Shown: positions 14,564 through 64,000 of the stretch, one piece after another | Position numbering within the stretch: the first letter of the stretch is position 1 | Layout: every line of letters begins with the position of its first letter | Source: Bacteroidota bacterium | GTDB lineage: Bacteria; Bacteroidota; Bacteroidia; Bacteroidales; JAAUTT01 | Assembly (NCBI GenBank): GCA_030706405.1 | Contig: JAUZOO010000004.1 | Span: forward strand, 1 to 64,000 | DNA length: 64,000 nucleotides | Direction of reading: 5' to 3' | Notes under the pieces: model-generated | Told to the model about the DNA's origin: nothing | The model's database searches: none | What the model saw: the letters and a program-made list of their open reading frames with translations, nothing else | Program-made: the position numbers and the translations under genes

Positions 14564-14583
14564 AAAATGATCATCCCTTCCTT

Positions 14584-39601: not shown

Positions 39602-39769
39602 AAAAGACTGCATTGTGGATGACAAAGGTATACACGATGAATCCATTTTATCGTTGCGAAATGAAAAATCACCCTATTTTTTAAACCAATATATTACAAG
39701 ACATTATATAAAAAAAGATTACATATTTATTAAATTTTTATGATTATCGTATAGTTTACCTAAACGAAT

Positions 39770-45711: not shown

Positions 45712-48504
45712 CTATTCTTTTCCCGAGAAATCGAAATACAAAGTCATTTCCTTGGGCTGGGCTCTCCCATAGTCGTAATACATATTTTTATTGCCCGAAG
45801 GACCTAAATTAACGGGTTTCTGACCTTTGGTTCCAATCGGGGTAATGCCATGCATGAACGAAATATCGCCCGAGGGAAAGGCCGGAGCCACATTAAAAGT
45901 TTCTTTGGGCGATTGTGGAGTAAACAGGCGCATGAAAACATCTTCATTTTCCGTAACCACAACAAAAGGCTGCTCGGTAGTTTCGAGTTTCATCCAGTAC
46001 ATGTTCGAATAATATCCTTTAAATTCGGGATATTCCAATTTCTGCGACTCACCGGTAACAGTATTGTTATACGTCTTGTCCCAAACATTCAAAGTTGTGC
46101 CTTTCATGCGGTTTTTCCAAACACGGTATGGGCCATTACCAAGGTAACGAACACCTTTCACCAGTTTTTCGGGATATGAAAAACTCACGCCTAGGAAGGT
46201 AGAATATTCATCTACAGGACAATATTTTACATCCAGCTTAATCCATCCGGAGGGCATGATAGTCCATTTCACAACCGTGAAACTACTTTTCTTTCCATAG
46301 GTATTTTCGACAACTACATCATTACCTTCGCGATGACAAGCCATCGATTTAAAATCAGTTTCCCCTTCACAGATAACAGGTCCATTATTAAAAGGAATAA
46401 CGCCTTTACCGTTTTCAACACGTATTAACAAACCTGTTTTGCGGCTAAAGGTTACTTTCACGCCATTAGCAGCAACCGTACACGTTGAATCCGCTTCACT
46501 GATATCTATCGGGCCGCCATCGGATACAACCATCCTTTGTGCAATTTGCTGCGGGAGTTTCACCGGGAAGCTCCAGGTATAAATCTCCTGATTATGAGGA
46601 TCGGTAGCCGTAACATAAAGCACATCATAATCTTTCCAATCCGAAGGCAACTGAAGGCTTAACGTTCCGAACTGCCCGGGTTGAATATCGGGCGCTGTTG
46701 CTGTACCTGTTTTTATTGAAGCTGCATCTTTACTGTATGGCCCGGCCATCTTTGCCAGTTTCCACGAGAATGAACATTGGTTAATGTTGGTATAATGATA
46801 GCGATTCTGCAAACGGAACGTTCCGTCGAATGCGGACGTTATTTCGCGGTGTTCAAAATATACCGGCGACCATACTTCTTTGATGGTAAAATAACTTCCT
46901 TCTTTCTCTCGGTGAGGGCCAACGATGCCGTCTGGAGCATACGAACCAAAATTATCGATAAACCCGTTTTTATCGGTACGCACTACACCTTCATCGCAAA
47001 AAACCCAGAGAAAACCTCCGGCCGAAAGCGGTGTACGCCACATCAATTCCCAGAAATCATCGAGCGCTGCACCGGAGCCTCCATCAAAAATACCATGTAA
47101 AAATTCGGTAGGAAACACCACATCATGACCTTGATAATGAAGACCATTTCCATAATTATAATCCTTATAATGATGCGTATCGGCTCCACGAAAAATAGCC
47201 CAGGGATGAATCACCGGACGCTTTTGAATGTCGGCCTTGTCAATGACAGGATCGAGATCGAAGTTAAAACCGCCTTCATTTCCATTATCCCAGATAATGA
47301 TGGAAGGATGATTTTCGTTGAAAGCCACCATCTCGTTAGCCAGCTGGGTTCCGGTTGGTGTATCATATTTGCCGTGCCATCCGGCCAGTTCGTCGAGAAC
47401 AAACAAACCGAGCGAATCGCAAACATCATAAAAATGAGCATCGTGCGGGTAATGCGACATACGCACCGCATTCATATTCATATCCTTCATCAGCTTCACA
47501 TCGGCAATGCTGATATCTTTGTTCGTAGCCCTTCCGGTATTGGGCCAGAAAGCATGATAATTAACGCCTTTAAACTTAATTTTGACGCCATTCACATAAA
47601 TACCGTCGCGTTGGCGAAGCTCCACCGTACGGAAACCAAACCGTTGATTAACGGCATGTACCGCTTTTCCGTTCTGAAGAAGGGTAAAGGTTACTTTGTA
47701 TAAAGTAGGAAATTCAGAAGTCCACAACTTCGGCGATGAAACGGTTGTTTTAAGATGAGCAACCGAATCGCCGTTACTGATTTTTGTTTTAAACGGAGCT
47801 CCAAAAGCTTTACCGTCGAGCGTATAGATTTGTGCGCTTACCTCATCGGCACCGGATAGTTTACTTAAGAAAACGTTTACATTAAAAGAGCCGTCGGCTT
47901 TTGCATCCAGGGCTATACGATTAATGCGTTGCTGTGGAAGCGCTTCGAGATATACCGGACGAAAAATTCCTCCATAAATCCAGAAGTCACCGATACGCTC
48001 GGCGGCATTCACCGATTTATTGGCCGAATGCTTGGCTACGTTAACTTCCAGAAGGTTATTCTGCCCAACCTTTAGCAACGAAGTTACATCGTACTTAAAA
48101 CAATAGTAACCTCCCTGATGTACCGGTCCTGCAGATTTGCCGTTTATTTTCACCTCGGTATCGGTCATCGAACCTTCAAAAACGATATCGATAGTTTTTT
48201 CTGACCAGTTGGACGGAACTTTAAATTTATATTTATAAAATCCGGATTCTTTTCCGCGGACAGTATCCTTTGCCCACCCGTAGTCATACTTTCCAAAACC
48301 TTGCAACTCCCAGTTGGACGGCACCGGAATGGTGGTCCATTTGCCCGAATTTTGGCCGGCCGTACAGAAGAACTGCCAGTTTACTGTGTGGTCGCTTCCT
48401 GTTCCGGAAAGATACAGGTGCTGCGTTTCCTGCCCGTTCATCTGTACAAACAACAGCAATGAGAGGCAAAGCATCACAATTTTAAATGATAGAGACTTTA
48501 GCAT
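45712..48504 (-). CDS. GH2 glycoside hydrolase (beta-galactosidase type), secreted
   Basis: This 930-residue protein has a signal peptide (MLKSLSFKIVMLCLSLLLFV, cleavage near residue 24). GH2 domains run in order: jellyroll sugar-binding (about 50-185), immunoglobulin-like (about 190-290), TIM barrel (about 295-600), then two C-terminal beta domains. In the barrel, IIIWDNGNEGG holds the acid/base Glu410 and VVFPTEFLHGIFDGG holds the nucleophile Glu467. Both are intact. It probably removes a terminal galactose, glucuronate or arabinopyranose-type sugar from pectic side chains in the periplasm. The preference is inferred from the GH28 and PL1 neighbours. It reads in the same direction as GH28, 77 bp downstream of it. 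Confidence 0.93.
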   Translation of the reverse strand: MLKSLSFKIVMLCLSLLLFVQMNGQETQHLYLSGTGSDHTVNWQFFCTAGQNSGKWTTIPVPSNWELQGFGKYDYGWAKDTVRGKESGFYKYKFKVPSNWSEKTIDIVFEGSMTDTEVKINGKSAGPVHQGGYYCFKYDVTSLLKVGQNNLLEVNVAKHSANKSVNAAERIGDFWIYGGIFRPVYLEALPQQRINRIALDAKADGSFNVNVFLSKLSGADEVSAQIYTLDGKAFGAPFKTKISNGDSVAHLKTTVSSPKLWTSEFPTLYKVTFTLLQNGKAVHAVNQRFGFRTVELRQRDGIYVNGVKIKFKGVNYHAFWPNTGRATNKDISIADVKLMKDMNMNAVRMSHYPHDAHFYDVCDSLGLFVLDELAGWHGKYDTPTGTQLANEMVAFNENHPSIIIWDNGNEGGFNFDLDPVIDKADIQKRPVIHPWAIFRGADTHHYKDYNYGNGLHYQGHDVVFPTEFLHGIFDGGSGAALDDFWELMWRTPLSAGGFLWVFCDEGVVRTDKNGFIDNFGSYAPDGIVGPHREKEGSYFTIKEVWSPVYFEHREITSAFDGTFRLQNRYHYTNINQCSFSWKLAKMAGPYSKDAASIKTGTATAPDIQPGQFGTLSLQLPSDWKDYDVLYVTATDPHNQEIYTWSFPVKLPQQIAQRMVVSDGGPIDISEADSTCTVAANGVKVTFSRKTGLLIRVENGKGVIPFNNGPVICEGETDFKSMACHREGNDVVVENTYGKKSSFTVVKWTIMPSGWIKLDVKYCPVDEYSTFLGVSFSYPEKLVKGVRYLGNGPYRVWKNRMKGTTLNVWDKTYNNTVTGESQKLEYPEFKGYYSNMYWMKLETTEQPFVVVTENEDVFMRLFTPQSPKETFNVAPAFPSGDISFMHGITPIGTKGQKPVNLGPSGNKNMYYDYGRAQPKEMTLYFDFSGKE

Positions 48505-48581: not shown

Positions 48582-50180
48582 TTATTGTTTTCGAACAGCT
48601 GTAACCGGAGCGCTGGTTGTTTTAACAATTTCGTCCTTAGCCAGACGCAAATTATTGCTCGAAAGAGCGATGTTTTCCGAGGCAGCACCGTCAACTTTAA
48701 GGAATACATCGGTTTTTACCGGCTGATAACAGCCATGAACAAACGCTTCCTTAACATCGCGAAACTCTACCAGCGGAACAGCAAGCTGAGGTGTCAGACT
48801 CTTTAGTCCGTTCACTTCAATCTGCGACGATTTTTCGACTAGTATGGCCCGGCCATCTTCAGCATCAATTTGCAGATTATGAAAAGCGATATTCTCGGAA
48901 TTGCTTACCGTAAATCCGGTTTTGGTTTTAAGCTGAATATCGTTAAATGTAATATCGCGAATAGGCATCTCCTCAATACCAATCAATGAGCCGGCCTGCG
49001 AAGCATTGCCGGTAATTCCGCTAAAGTGCATGTTCCGGAACGTCGGCGTACGCTCGGTAACAGGTTCTGCATCGGCTTTATCATAAAACATATTCAGGGT
49101 GATTGCCTCTAACTTAATATTTTTCATCACCACATTGCTTACGCGAATATCTTCGACCACACCTCCACGTCCACGGGCAGTTTTAATTCGGATACCCCGG
49201 TCGGTTCCGTCAAAAATACAATTGGAGATGACGATCTTCTTAACACCGCCCGACATCTCACTTCCAATCACCACCCCGCCATGACCGGAGAGCATCGTAC
49301 AATTGGTGATGGTATAATTTTCGGCAGGAGCGTTCATCTTACGTCCGGCTTTGTCTTTGCCCGACTTGATGGTGATGCAGTCGTCGCCCACGCTGATGTG
49401 GCAGTTTGAAATATGTACATTGCTGCACGACTCGGGATTAATGCCATCGGTATTGGGCGAATGCGGGTTATTAATGGTAACCTTATCGACTACAACATTA
49501 TCGCAAAACTCAGGGTTCACCGTCCAGAACGGAGAGTTTTGAATGGTAACACCTTCGATACGGACATTTTTACAATACATGGGCTGAATGAACGGAGGCC
49601 GGAGAAATGCACGGGCAATCATGGAAGGCACTTCGGGATCGGCTTGTACCTGGTAATTTAAACTATCCGAAATACGTTGCCATTTGGAACGAAAACCTTT
49701 GGGTTTGGCAGGGAGCGACTCGGCAAAATCCCACCACTTTTTACCCTGACCATCGATGGTCCCGTGACCTGTAATGGAGATATTATCGGCCTTCCAGGCA
49801 TAAAACAACGGATGAAAACTCATCACATCAATACCTTCATAGCGCGATTGCACCATGGGCAAATAATCATCAAAATCATCAGAGAATTTAATCACGGCAC
49901 CAGCATCCAGAAGGATCGAAATATTACTTTTAAGCTCAATGGGACCGGTAAGAAAAGTGCCCGCAGGAAAATAAACGGTACCTCCTCCCCCCTTTACGGC
50001 AGCATCAATGGCTTTTTTAATGGCTTCGGTATTCTTTTGAATACCATCATTCTTTGCACCAAAATCCTTCACATTATAGGCCTGGGCCGAGATACTTGAA
50101 GAAATACCTGTAAATCCAGCCAAAACAAAACACAGGAAAACAATAATTTGTCGGTAAGAAAAAAAACGCTGAGCTATCAT
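48582..50180 (-). CDS. GH28 polygalacturonase-type hydrolase, secreted
   Basis: This 532-residue protein has a signal peptide (residues about 1-32, then QAYNVKDFGAKNDG, the usual start of the mature GH28 enzyme). The right-handed parallel beta helix carries the four diagnostic motifs: SPNTDGINPES (N-T-D), GDDCITIKSG (D-D), SGHGGVVIGSE (G-H-G) and RGIRIKTARG (R-I-K). The three catalytic aspartates are therefore present. It cleaves alpha-1,4 bonds in homogalacturonan or rhamnogalacturonan-derived oligosaccharides, in the periplasm or on the surface. The C-terminal 60 residues carry no catalytic motif. It shares the operon with GH2 and is divergent from lacI, across a control region with LacI-type operators. 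Confidence 0.95.
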   Translation of the reverse strand: MIAQRFFSYRQIIVFLCFVLAGFTGISSSISAQAYNVKDFGAKNDGIQKNTEAIKKAIDAAVKGGGGTVYFPAGTFLTGPIELKSNISILLDAGAVIKFSDDFDDYLPMVQSRYEGIDVMSFHPLFYAWKADNISITGHGTIDGQGKKWWDFAESLPAKPKGFRSKWQRISDSLNYQVQADPEVPSMIARAFLRPPFIQPMYCKNVRIEGVTIQNSPFWTVNPEFCDNVVVDKVTINNPHSPNTDGINPESCSNVHISNCHISVGDDCITIKSGKDKAGRKMNAPAENYTITNCTMLSGHGGVVIGSEMSGGVKKIVISNCIFDGTDRGIRIKTARGRGGVVEDIRVSNVVMKNIKLEAITLNMFYDKADAEPVTERTPTFRNMHFSGITGNASQAGSLIGIEEMPIRDITFNDIQLKTKTGFTVSNSENIAFHNLQIDAEDGRAILVEKSSQIEVNGLKSLTPQLAVPLVEFRDVKEAFVHGCYQPVKTDVFLKVDGAASENIALSSNNLRLAKDEIVKTTSAPVTAVRKQ

Positions 50181-50441: not shown

Positions 50442-50476
50442 CAAACCTATTAAGAATAATTTAATATTGCAATAAA

Positions 50477-50503
50477 AACGTTTACATTGTAAATCGTTTA
50501 CAA
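50477..50503. promoter_or_regulatory. LacI-family operator cluster, autoregulatory
   Basis: AACGTTTACA (50477-50486) is directly followed by TTGTAAATCGTTTACAA (50487-50503), a near-palindrome one base longer than the perfect site at 52737. The half site TTGTAAA / TTTACAA is typical of LacI-family sites. It lies 30 bp before the lacI start. Confidence 0.75.
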
Positions 50504-50532: not shown

Positions 50533-51552
50533 ATGTCAAGTGAAAACGATTACAAAATGAGCAGTTTAAACGAGGTTGCCAAGAAGGCCGGGGTATCTAT
50601 TGCCACGGTCTCAAGAGTTATCAATAACAGCCCTAAGGTCAACCCCGAAACTCGACTCAAAGTACAGCAGGTTATTAAAGATTTGAAATATCACCCCAAC
50701 CGGGTCGCCAAACGCCTTCGCAACAAAAGTGCATCGGGCAATCTTATTGGCGTATTAATCCCTGATATTCAGAACCCTTTTTACGTTGAAGTTTTGCGTG
50801 GCATTGAAGATGTGGCCTACGAAAACAAGTACGCCCTCATCATGTGTAACTTCTCACAGGACGAAAAAAAGGAACAATTATACCTCGATATTCTTCAATC
50901 CGAATCGGTTGACGGACTGATTGCCGCACCTACCAACGAACACGACCAAAAAGTTACCAACCTGGTAAAAAGCGGCCTGCCCATTGTTTGTGTAGACCGT
51001 GGATTAGCCGACGTAGACGTGGATGTAATACTGGTTGAAAACCAAAACGGAGCCTACTCTGCCGTTGACCACCTGGCCAAAGCAGGTTACAAACGTATCG
51101 CCTACATTTCGGGGCTTCGTCAGCTCCCTTCGAGCCAGGAACGTGAGGCAGGATACTCCAATGCCTTAAAGGCCAACGGAATCCCTATCGACAGAACCCT
51201 CATCAGATACGGTGACTCTCGCCATGAAAGCGGGGTAAAATTATGCGAAGAACTTCTTAACCTCCCATCTCCACCAGACGCCATTTTTGCAGGTAATAAC
51301 CTGATTACACTTGGAGCGTTGGAAACAATCCACAAAAAAGGATTAACCATACCGAGCCAAATCGCCATTATCGGTTTCGACGATATGTACTGGTCCATTT
51401 CACTTAATCCGCCTCTTACCGCTGTAAAACAGCCAGCTTACGAAATTGGCCGCAGAGCAGCAGAACAACTTATTTTACGTATCAACGATCCGGCACGCCC
51501 CACCATGAGCATGGTGATGAAAACCGAATTAGTCGTTCGGAGTTCGTGCTAA
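50533..51552 (+). CDS. LacI-family transcriptional regulator
   Basis: This 339-residue protein has an N-terminal helix-turn-helix and hinge (LNEVAKKAGVSIATVSRVIN, then NPETRLKVQQVIKDLKYHPN, RVAKRLRNK). A periplasmic-binding-protein-like effector domain (about residues 70-335) follows, with IGVLIPDIQNPFYVEVLRGI and PDAIFAGNNLITLGALETIH. It probably represses the adjacent dehydrogenase, aldolase, PdxA, kinase and symporter genes through TTGTAAACGTTTACAA sites, with a sugar acid or its derivative as inducer. The ATG at 50533 precedes MSSLNEVAKK; the internal methionine at 50557 is the other possible start. The inducer is not identifiable. Confidence 0.93.
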   Translation: MSSENDYKMSSLNEVAKKAGVSIATVSRVINNSPKVNPETRLKVQQVIKDLKYHPNRVAKRLRNKSASGNLIGVLIPDIQNPFYVEVLRGIEDVAYENKYALIMCNFSQDEKKEQLYLDILQSESVDGLIAAPTNEHDQKVTNLVKSGLPIVCVDRGLADVDVDVILVENQNGAYSAVDHLAKAGYKRIAYISGLRQLPSSQEREAGYSNALKANGIPIDRTLIRYGDSRHESGVKLCEELLNLPSPPDAIFAGNNLITLGALETIHKKGLTIPSQIAIIGFDDMYWSISLNPPLTAVKQPAYEIGRRAAEQLILRINDPARPTMSMVMKTELVVRSSC

Positions 51553-51590
51553 AAACACAAAGCCTTCTTTTCGATATACGCCTGAAAAAA

Positions 51591-51606
51591 TTGTAAACGT
51601 TTTCAC
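51591..51606 (+). promoter_or_regulatory. LacI-family operator before the alcohol dehydrogenase gene
   Basis: TTGTAAACGTTTTCAC matches the palindrome at 52737 in its left half and most of the right half. It ends 13 bp before the start codon. Confidence 0.75.
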
Positions 51607-51619
51607 ATTAACACCATAT

Positions 51620-52765
51620 ATGAACACAGTAATTATTAATAATCCCAGTCGATTGGTTTTCGGAGCCGGCAGCCTTCAAAAAATGGCCGACGATTACCTT
51701 GCATTGGGGTTAAAACGCCTTTTTGTACTCACCATTCCTTCCATTACCGATCAACTCACTCCCGTTTTTGAACAGTTAAAATCGAACGGAGTTACCATAC
51801 AAATCAACACCAACATCAGCAGAGAGCCTTCTTTTTCCGATTTGGAAACCATCTTAGCCTTTGCCCGCACGTTTAACGCAGACAGCGTGGCCGGAATTGG
51901 CGGAGGAAGTGTTTTGGACGTAGCCAAACTAGTGGCAGCCCAACTACACAACGATCAACCATTACAGTCAATCGTAGGGAACGGATTACTTAAAGGCCGC
52001 AGCACATACCTGGCTTGTCTGCCAACCACTTCCGGAACCGGAAGCGAAGTTTCGCCAAACGCCATTCTGTTAGATGAAACCGATGGTGCTAAAAAAGGAA
52101 TCATCAGCCCGTTTTTGGTTCCCGACGGCGCTTATATTGACCCTGCGCTTACACTCAGGCTTCCTCCATACGTAACCGCATTCACCGGAATTGACGCATT
52201 AACCCATTGTATAGAAGCTTACACTAACAGATTTGCCCACCCGATGGTGGACACTTTTGCACTGGAAGGAATAAAACTAATTGGCCGTAACCTGAAAAAA
52301 GCCGTTGATAACGGACAAGACCTGGAAGCACGCTCAGCCGTAGCCCTGGGCAGCGTTTACGGTGGAATGTGTCTCGGACCGGTAAATACGGCAGCGGTAC
52401 ATGCGTTAGCTTACCCGCTTGGCAGTGAATACAAAATTGCCCACGGTGTTTCCAATGCCCTGCTCCTGCCCTACATCATGGAATTCAATCTTCCGGAAGC
52501 CGAAGCCAAATATGCTGAAATAGCCCGTGCCATGGGAGCCCAAGAAGGTAACACAGACCGCGAAACAGCGCTGAACGGTATTGAACTCGTTCGCAAGCTA
52601 ATTAGCGACTGCGGAATACCAGCCCATCTTTCAGAAATCAATATTCCTTTTGAAGATATTGAAGCCATTGCCCAATCAGCCTTAGGAGTTCAACGCCTTC
52701 TGAAGAACAATATCAGAGAATTTTCTTTGGCTGATATTGTAAACGTTTACAAAATCGCATATTAA
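51620..52765 (+). CDS. Iron-containing alcohol dehydrogenase
   Basis: This 381-residue group III (Fe) dehydrogenase has the cofactor loop VAGIGGGSVLDVAKLVAAQL (about residues 92-111). The metal ligands lie in FTGIDALTHCIEAYTNRFAH, then AVHALAYPLGSEYKIAHGVS with two histidines, plus an upstream aspartate. It reduces an aldehyde with NAD(P)H or runs the reverse. As the first gene after lacI and directly before the aldolase, it most likely reduces the four-carbon aldehyde acid made by aldol cleavage, giving a sugar acid for the kinase. That is inference. Its last codons contain the perfect operator of the next gene. Confidence 0.93.
   Translation: MNTVIINNPSRLVFGAGSLQKMADDYLALGLKRLFVLTIPSITDQLTPVFEQLKSNGVTIQINTNISREPSFSDLETILAFARTFNADSVAGIGGGSVLDVAKLVAAQLHNDQPLQSIVGNGLLKGRSTYLACLPTTSGTGSEVSPNAILLDETDGAKKGIISPFLVPDGAYIDPALTLRLPPYVTAFTGIDALTHCIEAYTNRFAHPMVDTFALEGIKLIGRNLKKAVDNGQDLEARSAVALGSVYGGMCLGPVNTAAVHALAYPLGSEYKIAHGVSNALLLPYIMEFNLPEAEAKYAEIARAMGAQEGNTDRETALNGIELVRKLISDCGIPAHLSEINIPFEDIEAIAQSALGVQRLLKNNIREFSLADIVNVYKIAY
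52737..52752. promoter_or_regulatory. Perfect LacI-family operator inside the dehydrogenase gene
   Basis: TTGTAAACGTTTACAA is an exact 16-bp palindrome. It lies in the last codons of the dehydrogenase gene and ends 20 bp before the aldolase start. It may form an internal promoter-operator or serve as a second looping site. Confidence 0.85.
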
Positions 52766-52771
52766 ACAAAA

Positions 52772-53677
52772 ATGAGCAAAACAGTTAAAAAATATAGCGG
52801 TGTCATCGTTCCGATGATTACTCCCTTTAACCAGGATCTTACCGTTGACCTTAAGGCCAACGAACGGATTCTGGATTCCTTTATAAAAGCCAACGTATTT
52901 CCATTTCTTGCCGGAACCACCGGCGAATCGGTATCCATCTCCGATTCTCAAAAAGCTTTATTAATAAAATCGGCCGTTGACCATGTAAATCACCGCACGC
53001 TGGTTTATGTCGGAATTGCCGGGAATTGCCTGCACGACTCAATCGACAATGCAAAACTGTATGCCGACATGGGCGCCGATGTACTGGTGGCTCATCTTCC
53101 ATTTTATTACCCCATAAACTCCGACCAGATGATTCGTTATTTCGAGCAACTGGCCGAGAATTGTCCCTGCCCGCTCATCCTTTACAATATACCTGTAACC
53201 ACCAAACAATCCATTCCGGTAGATGTTATTGAGAAACTTAGCTACCATCCTAACATTGTTGGTATCAAAGATTCGGAAAGAGGTATTGAACGGCTGGACC
53301 AATCATTAGCATTATGGAAAGACCGTAAAGACTTTGTTCACCTCATGGGCGCAGCAGTACAGTCAGCCTACGCATTGCTCAACGGTTCCGACGGTATAGT
53401 TCCAAGCACCGGAAATATCACCCCAAAACTCTATAACGATCTTTACGAAGCAGCGCTCCGTGGAGACAGCCAAAAGGCTGAAGAACTTCAAGAGTTGACC
53501 AACAAAATATCCGAAGTTTATCAAAAAAACAAAATCCTGAGCCAGTCTATTCCGGCATTAAAGGTCATGATGTCTGTTTACGGCATTTGCGATCCTTACG
53601 TAATGCCGCCAATGTACCGCCTTGGCGATCAGGAAGAAGAACGGATCAAGAAAGAAACGAAACAACTTTTGGGCTAA
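52772..53677 (+). CDS. DapA-family aldolase (dihydrodipicolinate synthase/N-acetylneuraminate lyase type)
   Basis: This 301-residue TIM-barrel enzyme forms a Schiff base with pyruvate or a 2-keto acid through Lys166 in NIVGIKDSERG. Tyr138 in PLILYNIPVTT is the catalytic tyrosine. The G-T-T-G-E motif (FLAGTTGESVSISDSQ) binds the keto-acid carboxylate. Family members cleave sialic acid, 2-keto-3-deoxy sugars and similar compounds. With the PdxA2-like and DUF1537 partners, a substrate giving pyruvate plus a four-carbon aldehyde acid is plausible, for example a 3-deoxy-heptulosaric acid. True DapA activity is less likely given the location. It starts 6 bp after the dehydrogenase stop. Confidence 0.88.
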   Translation: MSKTVKKYSGVIVPMITPFNQDLTVDLKANERILDSFIKANVFPFLAGTTGESVSISDSQKALLIKSAVDHVNHRTLVYVGIAGNCLHDSIDNAKLYADMGADVLVAHLPFYYPINSDQMIRYFEQLAENCPCPLILYNIPVTTKQSIPVDVIEKLSYHPNIVGIKDSERGIERLDQSLALWKDRKDFVHLMGAAVQSAYALLNGSDGIVPSTGNITPKLYNDLYEAALRGDSQKAEELQELTNKISEVYQKNKILSQSIPALKVMMSVYGICDPYVMPPMYRLGDQEEERIKKETKQLLG

Positions 53678-53706
53678 TACCAAAAGCAAACAACACGAAT
53701 AAAAAA

Positions 53707-54744
53707 ATGAGCAACAACACAAAACATATTCCTATCCTTGCCATCACCATGGGTGACCCGGCTGGTATAGGCCCTGAAATTGCCGCTAAAGCTTTTGCCG
53801 AAAGCAGCATTTACAGCACCTGCAAACCTCTGCTTATAGGCCATTCCCAAATCATGGAAAAAGCCATTAAAATTGCGGGTGTTAATCTGAAAATTAACAA
53901 AATAAACAATGTTTCGGAAGCCGTATTTACCCCCGGAACAATCGATATCTATGAAATTGAAGATGTTGATGTACAACAAATTCAATTTGGTCAAGTTTCA
54001 GAAGCTGCCGGCGACCTGGCCTTTAAAGCTGTAAAAACAGCCATCGAACTTGCCTTGCAAAAAAAAGTTGACGGCACGGTTACCGGTCCTATCAACAAGG
54101 AATCCATCAACAAAGCCGGGCATCATTTTTCTGGTCACACTGAGATTTACGCCCATTTTACCAATACCGCCAAGTACGCTATGCTTCTTTGCGACGAAAA
54201 CTTTCGGGTAATTCACGTTACCACCCACGTTTCGTTGCGCAAGGCCTGCGACCTGATTAAAAAAGAACGCGTGCTGGATGTCATCCGCCTGATGAACAAA
54301 GGGCTGAACGACCTTGGCATTGAATCGCCTCGCATCGGCGTTGCCGGCCTTAATCCGCATTCGGGCGACGGCGGACTGTTTGGCGATGAAGAAATTAACG
54401 AGATTGGCCCGGCCATTCAGGAAGCCCAAAAAGAAGGCATCCTCGCCAGTGGACCTGTTCCTCCGGACACCTTGTTCGCCCTTGCCAACGGTGGAAAATT
54501 TGATGGTTGCGTGGCCATGTACCACGACCAGGGGCACATTCCGTTCAAAGTACTGGGTTTCAACTGGGACCAGGAAAAGAAGACGATGAAAAGCGTAAAA
54601 GGGGTAAACATCACCCTTGGACTGCCCATCATCCGCACCTCGGTCGATCACGGTACCGCTTTCGAAATTGCCGGAAAAGGAATTGCCAGTCCGGATGCCT
54701 TATTTCACGCTATTGAATATGCTGTACGACTGTATAGAAAATAG
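53707..54744 (+). CDS. PdxA2-like 4-phospho-sugar-acid dehydrogenase
   Basis: This 345-residue enzyme is related to PdxA (4-hydroxythreonine-4-phosphate dehydrogenase). Motifs: ITMGDPAGIGPEIAAKAF (residues about 14-31), VTGPINKESINKAGHHFSGH with metal histidine, GLNPHSGDGGLFGDEE, AMYHDQGHIPFKVLGF and IRTSVDHGTAFEIAGKG. Relatives called PdxA2 oxidise D-threonate 4-phosphate (or L-threonate and erythronate phosphates), which lose CO2 to give DHAP. The adjacent DUF1537 kinase makes that role far more likely than vitamin B6 synthesis. The start at 53707 follows the aldolase by 29 bp; a longer frame from 53587 overlaps it. Confidence 0.92.
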   Translation: MSNNTKHIPILAITMGDPAGIGPEIAAKAFAESSIYSTCKPLLIGHSQIMEKAIKIAGVNLKINKINNVSEAVFTPGTIDIYEIEDVDVQQIQFGQVSEAAGDLAFKAVKTAIELALQKKVDGTVTGPINKESINKAGHHFSGHTEIYAHFTNTAKYAMLLCDENFRVIHVTTHVSLRKACDLIKKERVLDVIRLMNKGLNDLGIESPRIGVAGLNPHSGDGGLFGDEEINEIGPAIQEAQKEGILASGPVPPDTLFALANGGKFDGCVAMYHDQGHIPFKVLGFNWDQEKKTMKSVKGVNITLGLPIIRTSVDHGTAFEIAGKGIASPDALFHAIEYAVRLYRK

Positions 54745-54784
54745 ACGAATAGCCTTAATTAAGAATTAAAAATTAACAATATAT

Positions 54785-55948
54785 ATGATTGCTGTAATAG
54801 CCGATGATTTCACAGGAGCTGCGGAGATAGGGGGTATCGGGCTACGATATGGGTTGAACGTTGTTATCGAAACTGAAGACATTCAGGGAGAAGATGCCGA
54901 CCTACTTATCATTGCCACCGATACCCGCTCGCTTAGCGCCAAAGAAGCATCGGACCTTATAACCCGAATTACAAAGAAATTAATTAAATTAAACCCACAA
55001 TTCATCTTTAAAAAGGTCGATTCAGTACTAAGAGGTAATATTACTGACGAATTAAATGCCCAAATGAAAGCCATGGACAAAAAGAGGGCGCTAATTGTTG
55101 CTGCTAACCCGATATTTAACCGGGTTATCCGTAACGGGATGTATTATATCGGCGAAACCCCGCTTAATGAAACAGGCTTTTCTACCGATCCGGAATTCCC
55201 CATCAGCTCCTCAAACGTACTGGAAATCATTTCAAACGAAAAAAATGTAAACGTTTTCAGTGCAAAACCAGGAGAAACACTTCCCGAAGAAGGAATCATC
55301 ATTGGCGACGTTACCGGCTTGAAAGACCTTGGCCGCTGGGTTTCGAGCATCGACAACGACACCGTAATTGCAGGCGCTTCCGGCTTTTTCGACGCATTAC
55401 TGTCGCATCAGTTTTCGCTGAACACCAACAACGTAATCCCCATGATTCCGTTTGGCGAAAAAGCGCTTTACGTCTTTGGCAGCACGTTTCCTAAAGAGGC
55501 CGATTTCATTCAACGACTGGAAGATAACGGCTATTATTTTTCCAACATGCCCAAAGAAATCTACTACAACAAAAACTTCGACCCTTGTTATCTCGAATAC
55601 TGGGCAAACGACATTGTTGACGGGATTAAAAAGCATCACAAAGTGGTAGCATCAATCGACTATACGCCGAGCGACGAGCCCGACATCGCCTTTCGCATTA
55701 AAGAAAACATGGGACAACTCATAAAAAAAATAACCGACCGTGTAGCCCTCAACGAATTACTGATTGAAGGAGGCGGAACAACATCGGTAGCACTAAAATA
55801 CTTACATATAAAAAAATTACTCCCGGTACAGGAACTGGAAACAGGAGTTATACGCATGAAAATCGACAACTCCACTGATTTTTGTCTAACCACCAAACCC
55901 GGGAGCTATTTCTGGCCCGAATGTGTATGGTTTCCGGAAGTAGTATAA
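54785..55948 (+). CDS. Four-carbon acid sugar kinase (DUF1537 family)
   Basis: This 387-residue kinase has the DUF1537 N-terminal domain starting MIAVIADDFTGAAEIGGIGL with the D-D-F-T-G motif. IFKKVDSVLRGNITDELNAQ and RALIVAANPIFNRVIRNGMY bind the acid sugar. The C-terminal nucleotide-binding domain includes ELLIEGGGTTSVALKYL and KPGSYFWPECVW. Characterised members phosphorylate D-threonate, L-threonate or D-erythronate at O4, and the product is oxidised by PdxA2. The pairing here gives a route from a four-carbon acid to DHAP. The stereoisomer is not visible from sequence. It lies 40 bp after the pdxA-like gene and 26 bp before the symporter. Confidence 0.92.
   Translation: MIAVIADDFTGAAEIGGIGLRYGLNVVIETEDIQGEDADLLIIATDTRSLSAKEASDLITRITKKLIKLNPQFIFKKVDSVLRGNITDELNAQMKAMDKKRALIVAANPIFNRVIRNGMYYIGETPLNETGFSTDPEFPISSSNVLEIISNEKNVNVFSAKPGETLPEEGIIIGDVTGLKDLGRWVSSIDNDTVIAGASGFFDALLSHQFSLNTNNVIPMIPFGEKALYVFGSTFPKEADFIQRLEDNGYYFSNMPKEIYYNKNFDPCYLEYWANDIVDGIKKHHKVVASIDYTPSDEPDIAFRIKENMGQLIKKITDRVALNELLIEGGGTTSVALKYLHIKKLLPVQELETGVIRMKIDNSTDFCLTTKPGSYFWPECVWFPEVV
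55243..55258 (+). promoter_or_regulatory. Intragenic LacI operator-like site
   Basis: AATGTAAACGTTTTCA inside the kinase gene matches the operator core GTAAACGTTTTC of the site at 51591. It may be chance, or an auxiliary site. Confidence 0.35.
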
Positions 55949-55974
55949 CACTAACAAATAAAAACTATTAATCG

Positions 55975-57609
55975 ATGCAGAGTGCAACATTACACTTACT
56001 AGATTACCTGATTCTCGGACTTTCGCTTATAGTACCAGTTTCCATTGGCTTAAAGTATTCGAAGAAACAAAACAACACCAAAAAATACTTTACAGCGAGC
56101 GGAACAATTCCGGCATGGGCTATTGGCATATCCATCCTGGCCACCCTGATAAGTAGCGTTACTTTTTTGGCTTATCCGGGAGAAGGTTATACCTCCAACT
56201 GGATATTACTGGTACAAGGATTAATGATACCGGTGACGCTGGCTTTCTTCATTGGTTTTGTTGTGCCTTTATACCGAAATGTAATCAAGTTAAGCGCCTA
56301 CGAATATTTTGAAAAACGCTTCGGTTTCGGAGCCCGGCTATACAGTTCACTCGGATTCTTTTTGGCCCATTTTTCAAAAATGAGTACGGTTTTTTACCTG
56401 GTTGCTCTGGCCTTTTCAAAGATGACCGGATTTAACAGTATTGATATGATCTGGATCATCGGATTCATCGTTGTATTTATCACCCTTATCGGTGGTATGG
56501 AGGCGGTCATCTGGATGGATGTTGTACAGGGTTTATTGCTGATTTGCGGAGGCGTTACCGCATTGCTGATGATTTTGTTCACTACACCAGGCGGCATCTC
56601 AGCTATATGGAATGTGGCCCTGGAAAACGGACACGTCGGTTTCGGTCCTTTCGACTTCAGCTTTGTCAAACTCACCTTTTGGGTAATGACCCTCAACGGA
56701 ATCTTTTATGCAATTCAAAAATATGGGACAGACCAAACCATCGTTCAACGTTACCTGACTGCAAAATCAGACAAAGGAGCCATCAAGGCGTCCTTAATAG
56801 GTGTAATGATGAGCGTACCGGTCTGGGCTCTGTTTATGTTTATCGGTACCACACTATATTCCTACTATCATATTCAAAGTGGGATGTTACCCGCAAACAT
56901 TAAAGCCGAGGAAGTTTTTCCATACTTTATCATGACACAGTTGCCGGTCGGTGTAGTCGGGCTGGTCCTTGCAGCATTGCTTGCAGCCGCCATAGCCAGT
57001 CTCAACTCTGACCTTAATTGTCTTTCGGCCATTTTGGTTGGCGATTATTTCATCCGGTTCAAACCGAACAGCACTGAAAAACAACGCATGTTCATGAGCC
57101 GCCTGTTAATTGCCCTGGCAGGGGTAGCATCGATAATAATGGCTATGTATTATGTCTATCATGGAGGCGATGGAATTCTTGGCACCTTATTCATCCTGTA
57201 TTCCATTTTCTCCGGAGGCATTGCAGGTTTATTCCTTTTAGGAATTTTCACATCAAGAGCCAATAAACAAGGGGTTTATGTTGGAATTTTAACCTGCATT
57301 ATTTTTACTGCATACGCGGTGCTGACATCCAGCAAAATAGGCACCGGAGCCGACAAACACCTTATCCTTAATTTAGGCCAATACAATTTCACCCATCATA
57401 AAATGATGATAGGCGTTTACAGCCACGTGATACTCTTTAGTGTAGGTTACGTAGCCAGCCTGTTCTTCAATAACAAGAAAGACATTAGCGACCTTACCTA
57501 CAGAAGCTGGAAGGATAAAAAAAACAGTACTTCCGCTCAGAACTCTTTCAACAGTATCTCGGTTGAAACATCAAGAACCCAATATCAGAATATTGAAACT
57601 ATAAACTAA
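55975..57609 (+). CDS. Sodium:solute symporter (SSS family)
   Basis: This 544-residue inner-membrane transporter has about 14 helices and the SSS signature. After LGLSLIVPVSIGLKYSKKQN comes the core SGTIPAWAIGISILATLISS with VTFLAYPGEGYTSNW. Later are FLAHFSKMSTVFYLVALAFS and AALLAAAIASLNSDLNCLSA, which match helices 6 and 8-9 with the sodium-site serines. A polar C-terminal tail (about 490-544) is cytosolic. Members of this subgroup take up sialic acids, uronates or sugar acids. In this operon the cargo is probably the substrate of the aldolase branch. It is the last gene before SusC, with a 155-bp gap. Confidence 0.9.
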   Translation: MQSATLHLLDYLILGLSLIVPVSIGLKYSKKQNNTKKYFTASGTIPAWAIGISILATLISSVTFLAYPGEGYTSNWILLVQGLMIPVTLAFFIGFVVPLYRNVIKLSAYEYFEKRFGFGARLYSSLGFFLAHFSKMSTVFYLVALAFSKMTGFNSIDMIWIIGFIVVFITLIGGMEAVIWMDVVQGLLLICGGVTALLMILFTTPGGISAIWNVALENGHVGFGPFDFSFVKLTFWVMTLNGIFYAIQKYGTDQTIVQRYLTAKSDKGAIKASLIGVMMSVPVWALFMFIGTTLYSYYHIQSGMLPANIKAEEVFPYFIMTQLPVGVVGLVLAALLAAAIASLNSDLNCLSAILVGDYFIRFKPNSTEKQRMFMSRLLIALAGVASIIMAMYYVYHGGDGILGTLFILYSIFSGGIAGLFLLGIFTSRANKQGVYVGILTCIIFTAYAVLTSSKIGTGADKHLILNLGQYNFTHHKMMIGVYSHVILFSVGYVASLFFNNKKDISDLTYRSWKDKKNSTSAQNSFNSISVETSRTQYQNIETIN

Positions 57610-57764: not shown

Positions 57765-60700
57765 ATGAACAAACGATTTCTAATCCTATCCATTATCGTT
57801 TTTCTAACCGGACACCTGTTTGCTCAAACAGTGGTGAAAGGTGTGGTAAAAACTGAAACGGGTGACCCTATCCCCGGCGTTACAATTATGATTAAAAGCT
57901 CTAAAACCGGAACAGTTACAGATGTTAATGGGAAATACTCCATAAAGACATCAGAACAAGATGTTTTGGTTTTCTCTGCCATTGGCATGAAAAAACAAGA
58001 AATCCCGGTTGGGAAACAGGCCCAAATTGACGTATCAATGGCAGATGATGCCACTACACTAGACGAAGCTGTGGTTGTAGGTTATGGATCTCAGAAAAGA
58101 GCAAACCTTACCAGTGCAGTTGAAGTAATCTCTCCTAAAGATGTAGCGGACCTCCCCGTGGGTAACTTGGGAGCAGCCCTTCGCGGTACTGTTAACGGTC
58201 TTTCGGTCTCGGGCGGTATGACTCGTCCAGGAACTCCTGCTACATTATCAATTCGTACCCCCTTTTCATTTTCAAAAGATGGAGGATCAACTGCCCCAAT
58301 AGTTGTCATTGACGATGTTGTCCAGATAGACGGATCTTCATCTTCTCAAGCTCCGGACTATTCAAGATTTAACAACCTCGACCCTTCAGAAATTGAAAGC
58401 ATCACTATATTAAAAGACGGTGCAGCTGCAATCTACGGAGCCCGTGCATCGCAGGGTGCCGTCATCGTTACTACCAAAAAAGGTAAAATAGGCCAGGCTC
58501 CTAGAATTTCTTATTCAGGACTCTATGGATGGAACGATGCCACATCTCATCCCCAGACTCTATCTGCATACGAAGAAGGAATTTGGTGGAACGAATTTAA
58601 TGGTCCTTATGGAGCCAACAAATCAGCAAGCACAAAACGCAACTTTTTTCAAGCAGACGAACTCGATTCATTAAAACACATGAATTATGATTGGTTAGGC
58701 CATGCTTGGAAAATAGGAAACACTGCGCGTCACACCATAAGTATTGATGGAGGTTCCGAAAGAGCCACATATTTTGCTTCGGCCACATATTATACCCAAA
58801 ATGCGAATCTAAATACCGGAGATTATAATAAATGGACATTCCGTGCAGGAACGACAGTTAACGTGGCCGCAAACTTAAAAGTTGGCCTTCAACTTTCGGG
58901 CGACAACACATACAAAAAAACTCCATTTAACAAGGTTGGCGGAGAAAACTTAGATAATGACTACGTAATGCTTCTCAAGACGCCGAAATATATACCCTGG
59001 CAACTTGGAGACCAGTTTACTTATCTGATGCTGAACCCTTACACCTATCCTGGTTCAAATGCAAATGATGTGAGTGCATTTAACTATTTCCAAATGCAGA
59101 ATTCAGACAACTACTCTGAGGCTCGTGGTTTATCTTATAATGTCAACATAAATGCCGAATTCAAAGTTCCTTTTGTAAAAGGATTATCTCTCAGAGGCAT
59201 GTTTAACAGAGCATATTCTTTTGCAACAAACAACCAGATAGGTACCCAATATACACTTCTTCGCCCTACAAAACTTGGAGGAACAGGAGAACACCTTTAT
59301 CTTCAACCAGGCCAAGGAGCTACTTATTCTGTGGATGTAAATTCGCGTAATGGCAACCGTATGTTATGGGATAGAAACTATACTATCGCTTACCAAGAAA
59401 ATTTCTTTGTGAATTACGAAAAACAGATCGGAAAACACAACATTACAGCAATGGCCTCCGTTGAACGTAGCGAAAGCGACTACAACTCATTGCGCTTGAT
59501 CGACAATGCTCCGCTTGTCAATAATAACGGACAAACAAATACTGCAACGGGAGGTATCGATATTTCAAATTCTGTAACGGGTAGAACTCAAAGTGGCAAC
59601 TTATCTTATCTCGGTCGTATTACCTATAACTACGCCAATAAGTATAACTTTACCTATCTCATTCGTTCAGATGCCTCCTCAAAATTTGCCCCTTCAAATT
59701 ACTGGGGAACATTCCATTCATTCGGTGCAGCTTGGGTAATCTCCGAAGAAAGTTTCTTCAAAGACAATGTCAAATTTGTTGATTTCTTAAAGCTCAGGGG
59801 AACCTTAGGTCTTACGGGTAAAGATAACACTAAAGCATGGCAATGGAGACAACGTTACACCTACCAGGGCGATAAAGGAGGCATCTTCGGCACATCTACT
59901 TCCACGGCTATTACGCCAGGCTACAAAATGGAAGCCAATCCTACCCCCAACGCAAAATGGGACAACGACACCAAATATGACATTGGTCTTGATGCAACTA
60001 TGTTAGGAGGAAAACTATCGACTACAATAGATTGGTGGAAAGATCACAATTACAATATGCTTCTTGTACGTTCTGCCCAGATTCCTGTGACTATAGGAGG
60101 TTCAAATGCCGACGAAAATTACGGTGGTATTGATGCTTATGGTATAGAACTGTCTATTTCGTGGAAAGATAAAATTACCCATGATTTATCATACAGCATC
60201 AGCCTTCAAACAGGTTGGAAAGATACTAGAGTAAAAAAATGGGATTTACCTTCGATAATCTACCCTTGGACTGACAAGCAAGTTGGCAAATCCGTAGACC
60301 CAGGAAAATGGGGTTATGATTGTTTAGGAATGTTCCATAATCAAACCGAAATTGACAACTATGTTGCCCAATACCTTACCAAAGCTGACGGAACATATGG
60401 CACAATGTTAGGTCTTGCTCCATCAGGTCTTAAGCCAGGCATGCTTTACTACCGGGATGTTCGTGGTGCAATAAATTCAGACGGATCATTTCAGGATGCT
60501 GATAAAACTATAGATTCTAACGACCAAATTAGATTGTCTAAAAAAGCAGACAACCCTTATGGTTTTACCACCAATCTAGGTTTAAATTATAAAGGTATCC
60601 AACTTAACGCCCAGCTTTCTGCTAATTGGGGTGGCTGGTCTGAGCTTGATGGCAGAACACAGGCAACAAATTCTTCAGCATTCTACGGAAACCAAGCCTC

Positions 60701-61043
60701 ATATTGGGCAGACATGTTCGATCCAGACTTGAATCCTAATGGAAAATATCCAAACCAATATCAAATAAGCCAATCGGGCCAGGATGGAGCAGCAGGTCAG
60801 AATGTAATTTCCAATTTCTGGAAAATTTCATCATTCAGAATGCAGATTAACTCAATTACTTTGGCATATTCATTTCCCAAAACGCTCATGTCGAAATTAA
60901 AAATAGAAGGTTTACGGATGAACCTTTCGATGACAAACGTCGCAAGCCTGTATAACCCATACCCTTACCGTGACCCTTTTACTGACATGACCGGATACCC
61001 AACCCTTAGAACAGTATCCCTAGGGGTGAATCTTACATTATAA
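57765..61043 (+). CDS. SusC-like TonB-dependent outer-membrane transporter
   Basis: This 1092-residue protein has a signal peptide (MNKRFLILSIIVFLTGHLFA, cleavage after FAQ), then a carboxypeptidase-like domain (VKGVVKTETGDPIPGVTI, residues about 23-95). The plug domain opens with the TonB-box-like DEAVVVGYGSQKRANLTSAV and contains SIESITILKDGAAAIYGARA-type text (ESITILKDGAA, YGARASQGAVIV). The beta barrel fills the rest. It imports oligosaccharides captured by the SusD partner 20 bp downstream, driven by TonB. Context with GH28, GH2 and PL1 suggests pectic oligosaccharides. The barrel end (SLGVNLTL) is a normal terminal strand. Confidence 0.96.
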   Translation: MNKRFLILSIIVFLTGHLFAQTVVKGVVKTETGDPIPGVTIMIKSSKTGTVTDVNGKYSIKTSEQDVLVFSAIGMKKQEIPVGKQAQIDVSMADDATTLDEAVVVGYGSQKRANLTSAVEVISPKDVADLPVGNLGAALRGTVNGLSVSGGMTRPGTPATLSIRTPFSFSKDGGSTAPIVVIDDVVQIDGSSSSQAPDYSRFNNLDPSEIESITILKDGAAAIYGARASQGAVIVTTKKGKIGQAPRISYSGLYGWNDATSHPQTLSAYEEGIWWNEFNGPYGANKSASTKRNFFQADELDSLKHMNYDWLGHAWKIGNTARHTISIDGGSERATYFASATYYTQNANLNTGDYNKWTFRAGTTVNVAANLKVGLQLSGDNTYKKTPFNKVGGENLDNDYVMLLKTPKYIPWQLGDQFTYLMLNPYTYPGSNANDVSAFNYFQMQNSDNYSEARGLSYNVNINAEFKVPFVKGLSLRGMFNRAYSFATNNQIGTQYTLLRPTKLGGTGEHLYLQPGQGATYSVDVNSRNGNRMLWDRNYTIAYQENFFVNYEKQIGKHNITAMASVERSESDYNSLRLIDNAPLVNNNGQTNTATGGIDISNSVTGRTQSGNLSYLGRITYNYANKYNFTYLIRSDASSKFAPSNYWGTFHSFGAAWVISEESFFKDNVKFVDFLKLRGTLGLTGKDNTKAWQWRQRYTYQGDKGGIFGTSTSTAITPGYKMEANPTPNAKWDNDTKYDIGLDATMLGGKLSTTIDWWKDHNYNMLLVRSAQIPVTIGGSNADENYGGIDAYGIELSISWKDKITHDLSYSISLQTGWKDTRVKKWDLPSIIYPWTDKQVGKSVDPGKWGYDCLGMFHNQTEIDNYVAQYLTKADGTYGTMLGLAPSGLKPGMLYYRDVRGAINSDGSFQDADKTIDSNDQIRLSKKADNPYGFTTNLGLNYKGIQLNAQLSANWGGWSELDGRTQATNSSAFYGNQASYWADMFDPDLNPNGKYPNQYQISQSGQDGAAGQNVISNFWKISSFRMQINSITLAYSFPKTLMSKLKIEGLRMNLSMTNVASLYNPYPYRDPFTDMTGYPTLRTVSLGVNLTL

Positions 61044-63475: not shown

Positions 63476-63545
63476 GCACCAAAATTGCATATTATACCTC
63501 AGCATATTGTTCACACAAACCATTAATAACAAATTGTACAAAAAA

Positions 63546-64000
63546 ATGAAAAGACGTTTAATTCCATGCTTACTATTTGCATCGGCGTTAGGGCTTAACC
63601 AAACGGCATCTGCACAGTACCCGACGATCCCTGACGATGTAAAAGCAAAAGCTGATTCGCTGATCAAAGCCGCAGAAAGACACTCAGATGAGGCTTGGCA
63701 AAAAGCCCTGCCAATCATCCAAAAAGAAGCTAAACAAGGGAAACCTTATATTCCATGGGCAGCCCGCCCTACTGACCTTCCTCAAGCTCAGATTCCATCT
63801 TTCCCAGGTGCTGAAGGGGGAGGTATGTACACTTTCGGCGGTCGTGGTGGCCGTGTAATTACCGTTACCAGTCTGGCCGATGATGGTCCTGGAACGCTTC
63901 GCGAAGCTTGCGAACAGGGAGGTGCCCGTATCGTTGTTTTTAACGTAGCCGGTATCATCCGCCTAAAAACACCGCTTATTGTACGTGCCCCTTACATCAC
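63546..64000 (+). CDS. Polysaccharide lyase family 1 (pectate lyase), N-terminal part
   Basis: The first 151 codons are present; the gene runs out of the window. A signal peptide (MKRRLIPCLLFASALGLNQT, cleavage after ASAQ) is followed by a short helical stretch (AKADSLIKAAERHSDEAWQK). The PL1 start comes next: IPSFPGAEGGGMYTFGGRGG, VITVTSLADDGPGTLREACE and IVVFNVAGIIRLKTPLIV. This is the first coil region of the right-handed beta helix. It probably cleaves homogalacturonan by beta-elimination, outside the cell or in the periplasm. Catalytic residues lie past the window edge, so activity cannot be judged. It appears to start a new transcript after the SusD terminator. Confidence 0.9.
   Translation, partial: MKRRLIPCLLFASALGLNQTASAQYPTIPDDVKAKADSLIKAAERHSDEAWQKALPIIQKEAKQGKPYIPWAARPTDLPQAQIPSFPGAEGGGMYTFGGRGGRVITVTSLADDGPGTLREACEQGGARIVVFNVAGIIRLKTPLIVRAPYI

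Follow-up and report, generated by a model that had tools for sequence, protein, structure and literature searches.

What becomes of 3-deoxy-D-lyxo-heptulosaric acid (Dha) once bacteria have freed it from rhamnogalacturonan II (RG-II)? RG-II is a conserved pectin of vascular plants and enzymes that dismantle it are known, but we found no description of the bacterial fate of the freed Dha in the open-access literature covered here. The question is raised by an operon in a 64,000-nucleotide stretch of DNA from a Bacteroidota bacterium (contig JAUZOO010000004.1). This stretch, called the window below, corresponds to C16:1-64000; the whole genome comprises 21 contigs and 4.93 Mb. The operon holds a cassette of five genes that we read, with a probability of about 0.8, as a pathway from Dha to pyruvate, dihydroxyacetone phosphate (DHAP), and CO2. 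The reading is based on gene content, homology, conserved catalytic residues, linkage to and co-occurrence with the glycoside hydrolase family GH143, and stereochemistry. From sequence we infer the substrates, the cofactors, the transport role, and the LacI control of the cassette.

A sequence-only reading had claimed a LacI-type regulator and a five-gene operon here. All six genes are open and lie on the plus strand at 50533-57609, and the family names given to the five genes were upheld by Pfam (PF00465/PF25137, PF00701, PF04166, PF07005, and PF00474), with NCBIfam in agreement:

50533 to 51552, plus strand: LacI-family regulator, 339 aa (PF00356, PF13377)
51620 to 52765, plus strand: protein of the iron-dependent alcohol dehydrogenase family (Fe-ADH; PF00465, PF25137)
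52772 to 53677, plus strand: DapA-family class I aldolase (PF00701, E 1.4e-51)
53707 to 54744, plus strand: PdxA2-like dehydrogenase (PF04166, E 5.3e-111)
54785 to 55948, plus strand: DUF1537 four-carbon acid kinase (PF07005, E 1.1e-36)
55975 to 57609, plus strand: SSS-family sodium symporter (PF00474), a candidate inner-membrane transporter of Dha

The five cassette genes are separated by 6, 29, 40, and 26 bases, and their order on the DNA is not the reaction order in which they had been listed. Judged from its translation, the PdxA open reading frame (ORF) as listed starts at a TTG within the aldolase gene; the gene likely starts at the ATG at 53707. Genome-wide, PF07005 has one match, the PdxA family two (C6 and the cassette), and the DapA family three (C12, the cassette, and C16:107328).

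We rederived the stereochemistry of the proposed route. In the Fischer drawing, D-lyxo is left, left, right. Cleavage of Dha between C3 and C4 leaves C5 on the left and C6 on the right above the carboxylate, which from the carboxylate is left, right, the D-threo series. Reduction of the resulting aldehyde thus gives D-threonate, as had been claimed. By the same bookkeeping, 3-deoxy-D-manno-octulosonic acid (Kdo) gives D-arabinose. Among the RG-II sugars listed in passages of PMC6353982 and PMC12282258, just two, Kdo and Dha, are 2-keto-3-deoxy acids, and of these only Dha would yield a four-carbon acid.

In the pathway that we propose, the SSS symporter would bring Dha across the inner membrane, and the DapA-family aldolase would cut it between C3 and C4 into pyruvate and 2,3-dihydroxy-4-oxobutanoate. 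Fe-ADH would convert this four-carbon aldehyde acid to D-threonate with NADH spent, and the DUF1537 kinase would make D-threonate 4-phosphate. The PdxA2-like enzyme would then form DHAP by oxidation and decarboxylation, with NADH regained. The net reaction, from Dha and ATP to pyruvate, DHAP, and CO2, would be redox neutral.

The last two steps resemble a known route. D-threonate is reportedly catabolized by DtnK, a DUF1537 protein, and PdxA2, as described by Zhang et al. in 2016, and the PdxA2 step of that route ends in DHAP. In the cassette, a kinase and a PdxA-family dehydrogenase are likewise adjacent, and DHAP is the proposed end product. Unlike the DtnK/PdxA2 route, the cassette adds an aldolase and Fe-ADH, which would make D-threonate from a seven-carbon acid; it also has an SSS transporter and an RG-II locus around it, and its proteins fall below the equivalog cut-offs for DtnK and D-threonate 4-phosphate dehydrogenase. 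The 2016 work of Zhang et al. is cited in passages of PMC12540250 and PMC10971088, and the latter names DtnK among the DUF1537 kinases. The aldolase, reductase, and kinase logic of the cassette is also that of the galactarate/glucarate route, which is one carbon shorter. There, an aldolase splits a keto-deoxy aldaric acid into pyruvate and tartronate semialdehyde, and reduction follows. That route uses other enzyme families, and its fragment has three carbons, unlike the four-carbon fragment of the cassette.

The sequence-only reading knew of no described pathway for Dha catabolism, and we found none in the open-access literature (titles, starts of abstracts, and passages) on Dha catabolism, Kdo aldolase, or D-threonate with pectin. 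The cassette would be a new pathway made from known families. If the reading is true, a defined Dha aldolase fills that gap and its gene can serve as a marker of complete RG-II use, while a known four-carbon acid module has been reused by placing two enzymes upstream of it in the pathway. The aldolase in reverse, from pyruvate and the four-carbon aldehyde, might then offer a route to make Dha, standards of which are lacking according to a passage of PMC12168206.

We compared catalytic residues across relatives of the cassette proteins. The residue counts keep stretches with an in-frame stop (2 of 84 for DapA and 2 of 92 for PdxA), leave out the SSS protein (10 of 79 such stretches), and are slightly inflated, since the locus pairs L112/L044, L116/L059, and L124/L188, whose contigs are equal in length, look like duplicates. 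In the aldolase, the Schiff-base lysine K166 and the catalytic tyrosine Y138 are present in 85/85 aligned sequences, as befits class I enzymes of the DapA/N-acetylneuraminate lyase family. The nearest folds to its model (predicted local distance difference test score [pLDDT] 92.5) are N-acetylneuraminate lyase and YagE, a 2-keto-3-deoxygluconate (KDG) aldolase. It shares the fold, the active-site lysine, and the tyrosine with these, at 22-28% identity to their structures among the 50 matches listed. Unlike them, the cassette aldolase has T143, S168, E169, and usually R170. The arginine of Escherichia coli DapA (dihydrodipicolinate synthase [DHDPS]), which we take to be a substrate-binding residue, is replaced by T in 82/85 cassette aldolases, M in 2/85, and S in 1/85, and the aldolase scores 167.6 bits against the true DapA/DHDPS model TIGR00674, below its cut-off of 206.15. 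Positions 168-169 are S-E in 85/85 sequences, and position 170 is R in 74/85. E169 and R170 are absent from E. coli DapA, from NanA and YagE, and from the other DapA-family protein encoded in the locus; S168 is common to that protein and the cassette aldolase. Our guess is that the E169/R170 region contacts the second carboxylate of Dha. In Fe-ADH, D192, H196, H261, and H275, presumably the metal ligands, are invariant (78/78 aligned sequences). The PdxA protein has H144, H218, and H273, which we take to be metal-binding histidines, in 93/93.

The kinase matches PF07005 (SBD_N) with 127.2 bits against a cut-off of 25, and 11/11 orthologues match as well. Its match to PF17042 (NBD_C) is weak (E 4.4e-4; 21.2 bits against a cut-off of 28.3); this domain matches 11/11 orthologues at E up to 1, the best at 4.5e-11. 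The first eight Foldseek matches to the kinase model (pLDDT 89.4) are DUF1537-type, with template modeling (TM) scores of 0.42-0.77 and alignment along the model, and the ninth has an E of 1e-3 and a TM score of 0.17. Six of the top eight PDB matches are titled as DUF1537 or HI1011 members, and the other two are 3dqq, a sequence match as well. The solved sequences nearest to the PdxA protein are 4jqp, 6e85, and 2hi1 (287-300 bits; other PdxA structures reach up to 187 bits), and 6e85 carries the name D-threonate 4-phosphate dehydrogenase.

Where would the Dha come from? The window holds no Dha hydrolase, as had been said, judged by families on the operon side and by reading of the ORF list alone for 1-44000. 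A search of the flanks for a GH143-type hydrolase, which the sequence-only reading had suggested, was positive about 8 kb past the right window edge (position p of L006 is C16:63000+p):

C16:72086-73987 (L006:9086-10987): GH143 homologue, 633 aa, with a BT_1020-like N-terminal beta propeller (PF24067, E 1e-121)
L006:10994-12520: GH142 homologue, the next gene after GH143, matching PDB 5mqr residues 616-1102 (E 4e-225)

The GH143 protein matches residues 23-609 of 5mqr (E 2e-224), and the two genes are thus each homologous to one half of BT_1020. Ndeh et al. reportedly described in 2017 how Bacteroides thetaiotaomicron degrades RG-II, with BT_1020 (GH143/GH142) among its enzymes. We take BT_1020 to be the two-module enzyme for which GH143 was founded, which fits the 5mqr match. 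If the two proteins act as BT_1020 does, the GH142 protein would take off the capping arabinose and the GH143 protein would release Dha outside the cytoplasm. According to a passage of PMC6811678, the founding enzyme of GH143 comes from B. thetaiotaomicron and has two modules; it removes Dha from RG-II and acts as a beta-L-arabinofuranosidase as well. Passages there and in PMC7761036 give GH143 as the family of the Dha-cleaving enzyme, and passages in PMC7263609 name BT_1020 (5mqr) as the GH142 beta-L-arabinofuranosidase. In plants, Dha is found only in RG-II according to a passage of PMC12168206.

The locus continues past the window to about C16:109696 with GH140-, GH43-, GH143-, GH142-, and GH78-like genes. 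Around GH143 and GH142 we observed genes for a DUF6298 protein, an apiosidase-family protein (PF13204, E 5e-114; presumably GH140), a GH43-like protein, a GH78-type rhamnosidase, and a SASA esterase. Another protein there aligns with the initial quarter of NF049877, a glucuronidase/arabinofuranosidase model (E 3e-158, below cut-off), and is presumably GH137. Farther along are GH141-, GH2-, and GH31-type proteins and a rhamnosidase-like protein, and near the apiosidase-family gene are an AP_endonuc_2 protein, a GFO/IDH/MocA oxidoreductase, and a second SSS transporter. By these sequence matches we take the locus for an RG-II locus. It is like the B. thetaiotaomicron RG-II system in having GH143/GH142 homologues and apiosidase-family, GH78-type, and BT0996-N-terminal-like genes; unlike BT_1020, which is one protein, GH143 and GH142 are two genes here.

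The far end of the locus has a second DapA-family aldolase gene (C16:107328-108245; L011:4328-5245), whose product scores 432 bits against PDB 4xky, an entry for a B. thetaiotaomicron protein under the name DHDPS. A major facilitator superfamily (MFS) transporter gene follows it (C16:108443-109696; L011:5443-6696). The GH143 contigs of G111 and G210 carry a gene 66-71% identical to the second DapA-family gene and then an SSS-type gene. This aldolase and its transporter are a candidate Kdo aldolase module.

We then looked at the cassette in other genomes. The window kinase matches 4 of 149 genomes near the window's (window genome counted), and a contig scan of named genomes with this kinase alone found no relative. 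A contig scan with an alignment of 11 kinases gave at least 492 relatives, the best 80 of which are the named loci used here; GH143 was not used to find them. By tblastn with the window proteins, these 80 loci, some of which are short contigs, have DUF1537 in 80, PdxA in 79, SSS in 73, DapA in 72, and Fe-ADH in 67. All five genes are present in 53 of the 59 named loci of at least 19 kb. The six incomplete long loci lack Fe-ADH (L120, L184), SSS (L124, L144, L175), or three genes (L173). Loci with the aldolase carry the record labels Bacteroidota, KSB1 (L144), Verrucomicrobiota (L175, L177), and Planctomycetota (L179, L180, L184); these KSB1, Verrucomicrobiota, and Planctomycetota loci are all from metagenome assemblies, and L144, L175, L179, and L184 are without one of the five genes. 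GH143, GH142, and the cassette are directly adjacent in L009 (GH143, GH142, LacI, DapA, SSS, Fe-ADH, PdxA, DUF1537, GH28) and in L061 (DUF6298, GH143, GH142, DapA, SSS, Fe-ADH, PdxA, DUF1537, GH28, GH140).

To count co-occurrence, we called GH143 strong at a PF24067 E below 1e-80 and the kinase strong at an 11-kinase alignment E below 1e-100. This dropped the weak GH143 matches of G012, G018, G197, and G292 (order) and of G510, G526, G606, and G687 (phylum), and the weak or distant kinase matches of G121, G178, G230, and G367 (order) and of G456, G472, G574, G595, G644, G694, and G740 (phylum). In the order sample of 393 genomes, GH143 (PF24067) matches 23 genomes (19 strong) and the kinase matches 15 (11 strong). 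All 11 strong-kinase genomes, which span 7 family labels, are among the 19 strong-GH143 genomes (Fisher p 1e-16, with related genomes treated as independent). Neither GH143 nor the kinase was matched in four genomes of the window's own genus. In the phylum sample of 395 genomes, GH143 matches 25 (21 strong) and the kinase 12 (5 strong), and three of the five strong-kinase genomes have GH143 (p 1.2e-3, same treatment). As a pectin control, GH88/105 matches 78 of 188 order genomes, 64 of them over the cut-off, while the strong kinase occurs in the order sample only with strong GH143. The tie between cassette and GH143 in the order is not a general pectin link.

A whole-genome search for GH143 gave a similar picture for the named loci. 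We chose 50 of the 80 (36 records not titled as metagenome-assembled genomes [MAGs] and 14 MAGs; GH143 was already known in some flanks) and searched 49. GH143 was found in 48/49, against 23/393 and 25/395 background genomes; 47 of these 48 matches are at E 2e-83 or better, and that of G822 is at 8.6e-18. In the flanks, 17 reference families of the locus have matches in 48/59 cassette loci against 0/30 control stretches, the 9 that are more RG-II-like, taken alone, in 29/59 against 0/30, and GH143 or GH142 alone in 14/59 against 0/30; the controls come from the same genome set (40 fetched, 10 too short) and are contig starts, not a random draw. The Dha pathway of the sequence-only reading is supported by the flank search, by the stereochemistry, and by the tie to GH143 of a cassette that was found without using GH143, with substrates that are predicted. 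With less assurance, we lean toward the broader view that an undescribed redox-neutral Dha pathway, complete or nearly so, operates in RG-II degraders of Bacteroidota, Planctomycetota, Verrucomicrobiota, and KSB1, and perhaps on Dha of green-algal scales in some bacteria without GH143.

Several observations weigh against the Dha reading. The kinase gives 127.6 bits to the DtnK equivalog NF047819, in its N-terminal part only and below the cut-off of 450, and the PdxA protein gives 339.4 bits to the D-threonate 4-phosphate dehydrogenase model NF002891, below 583. The PdxA protein does pass the general pdxA equivalog TIGR00557 (4-hydroxythreonine-4-phosphate dehydrogenase; 360.5 against 290.35), which matches 11/11 PdxA orthologues, the best at 1.6e-110. 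Because the D-threonate equivalog cut-offs are unreached while the general pdxA cut-off is passed, sequence scores alone do not give D-threonate, and we infer the substrates of both enzymes. Strong GH143 occurs without a strong kinase in 8/19 order genomes and 18/21 phylum genomes; therefore, Dha must meet another fate in these genomes or go unused. Conversely, two of the five strong-kinase phylum genomes, G466 and G568, hold cassette genes without GH143, and the whole-genome search found no GH143 in G820, a Melioribacter assembly. Only 14/59 long loci have GH143 or GH142 within 10 kb. Co-occurrence alone fits any other RG-II sugar, and the Fisher p values assume the independence of related genomes.

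We looked at these exceptions. G178, one of the eight order genomes with strong GH143 and no strong kinase, has a divergent DUF1537 and PdxA pair with no aldolase in the stretch read. The GH143 loci of five other order genomes (L066, L069, L070, L072, L073) have no cassette gene in the ~20 kb read. Beside GH143 in cassette-less genomes, 10 proteins (L068, L069, L072, L073) named no substitute Dha route; they are an aldo-keto reductase, an amidohydrolase, an MFS transporter, AP_endonuc_2, an iron dehydrogenase, and esterase-like and housekeeping proteins. Around the cassette in G466 and G568, 10 scanned proteins included no RG-II enzyme. The G466 flank (L187, G466:C2:135000-154900) holds a TonB receptor, an FGE-sulfatase/BNR-repeat protein, a sulfatase, and a GntP permease. 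Given the BNR-repeat protein and the sulfatase in this flank, and given that a passage of PMC10762512 reports Dha from green-algal scales too, it is possible that algal Dha feeds the G466 cassette. The scanned G568 flank proteins (radical-SAM, SpoIIE/GAF, and two protein-kinase proteins) give no hint of a source. G568 and G820 look like one assembly, judging by a 78502-base contig present in both, and no SSS gene was seen in L188, a cassette locus in a GH143-less genome.

Could the cassette serve another substrate? In one alternative, the aldolase would cut Kdo into pyruvate and D-arabinose while the other operon genes serve something else; Kdo is in the same polymer (a passage of PMC12282258), and N-acetylneuraminate lyase and YagE have the folds nearest to the aldolase model. 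A five-carbon aldose does not suit a four-carbon acid kinase and PdxA2, and the second DapA-family gene with its MFS transporter, or with SSS in G111 and G210, is a better Kdo candidate. We consider a Kdo cassette very unlikely. Free D-threonate or a related four-carbon acid could instead be the substrate of the operon, with the aldolase and dehydrogenase as unrelated pectin genes that act, for instance, on KDG. A passage of PMC10971088 lists DtnK and DenK among the DUF1537 kinases, and L065 (G178:C76) and L191 (G595:C61) have a DUF1537 and PdxA pair with neither aldolase nor dehydrogenase in the stretch read; therefore, such a pair can stand alone. The aldolase and dehydrogenase accompany the pair and the transporter in 53/59 long loci, however, and GH143 is present in 48/49 searched genomes, which makes this explanation quite unlikely.

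Other rare RG-II sugars, aceric acid or apiose, were also weighed. Apionate routes also use a kinase of the DUF1537 family, and the locus has the apiosidase-family gene with the AP_endonuc_2 protein, the GFO/IDH/MocA oxidoreductase, and the second SSS transporter nearby. A DapA-type aldolase requires a 2-keto acid, though, and neither sugar is one on release; the operon has no dehydratase. One apionate route includes a RuBisCO-like decarboxylase, and no such protein was among the locus proteins run through Pfam or NCBIfam. Use of either sugar by the cassette is thus highly improbable. Paralogues of vitamin B6 or lysine biosynthesis (DapA, PdxA, and a 4-hydroxythreonine kinase) are extremely unlikely. 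Passages of PMC7954711 and PMC10971088 say that DUF1537 proteins can phosphorylate 4-hydroxythreonine, and the PdxA protein is over the general pdxA cut-off, but C6 carries a separate PdxA and C12 another DapA-family gene, the aldolase is under the dapA cut-off and without the DHDPS arginine, and the context is RG-II degradation. Dha remains the substrate that we favor.

The cassette may be regulated together with its neighbors. Pectin enzymes had been claimed beside the operon, and we found GH28 and GH2 genes divergent upstream of it and SusC/SusD-like and pectate-lyase-like genes downstream, along with two operator-like sites:

45712 to 48504, minus strand: GH2 glycosidase, 930 aa, in the divergent arm of the locus; nearest curated model exo-beta-1,4-galactosidase BT4156, below cut-off
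48582 to 50180, minus strand: GH28 polygalacturonase-family protein, 532 aa (PF00295, E 3.8e-47)
50473 to 50486, no strand: LacI-type operator-like palindrome between the divergent GH28 and lacI genes, pattern TGTAAACGTTTWCA
51592 to 51605, no strand: operator-like palindrome with zero mismatches, between lacI and the dehydrogenase gene
57765 to 61043, plus strand: SusC-like TonB-dependent outer-membrane transporter, judged by the look of its sequence
61064 to 63202, plus strand: SusD-like glycan-binding lipoprotein, judged likewise
63507 to 64000, plus strand: start of a pectate-lyase-like gene, 578 aa, that continues past the window (PelZ model, E 2.9e-40, below cut-off)

With up to two mismatches on both strands, the pattern matches the window 13 times where 1.91 matches are expected, and 0/100 shuffles had as many. 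The matches fall at seven places (41923, 47868, 50473, 50541, 51592, 52738, and 55246), of which only 50473 and 51592 are intergenic and the rest lie within genes. Beyond the window there are 3 matches in L006 (0.46 expected), 4 in L007 (0.48 expected), and 0 in L011 (0.48 expected). From these sites it is plausible that both locus arms are under LacI control.

Several of these neighbors recur with the cassette. L008 has a LacI gene at the head of the same operon (83% identity), a SusC-like gene in the same place (76%), and a SusD-like counterpart (73%). Relatives of the GH2 gene with 57-60% identity adjoin the cassette in L108, L111, and L115, and a GH28 homologue is also 3' of the cassette in L009 and L061.

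We made three further observations. L074 (G000:C17:213175), L067, L071, and L076 carry GH143-like genes of another subfamily, which shares 39-42% identity with the first, and no other reference gene of the locus was found in the stretch. In the RG-II locus, genes for homocysteine S-methyltransferase-domain, MetH activation-domain, and 354-aa Pfam-less proteins (L007:9513-11215 and 13538-14602; C16:92513-94215 and 96538-97602) flank a GH31 alpha-xylosidase-like gene; as a guess, these methyltransferase-type genes could demethylate O-methylated RG-II sugars. Lastly, three consecutive minus-strand ORFs of 247, 258, and 161 aa at 37531-39646 of the window may, by reading of the ORFs alone, be pieces of one interrupted beta-helix-like gene.

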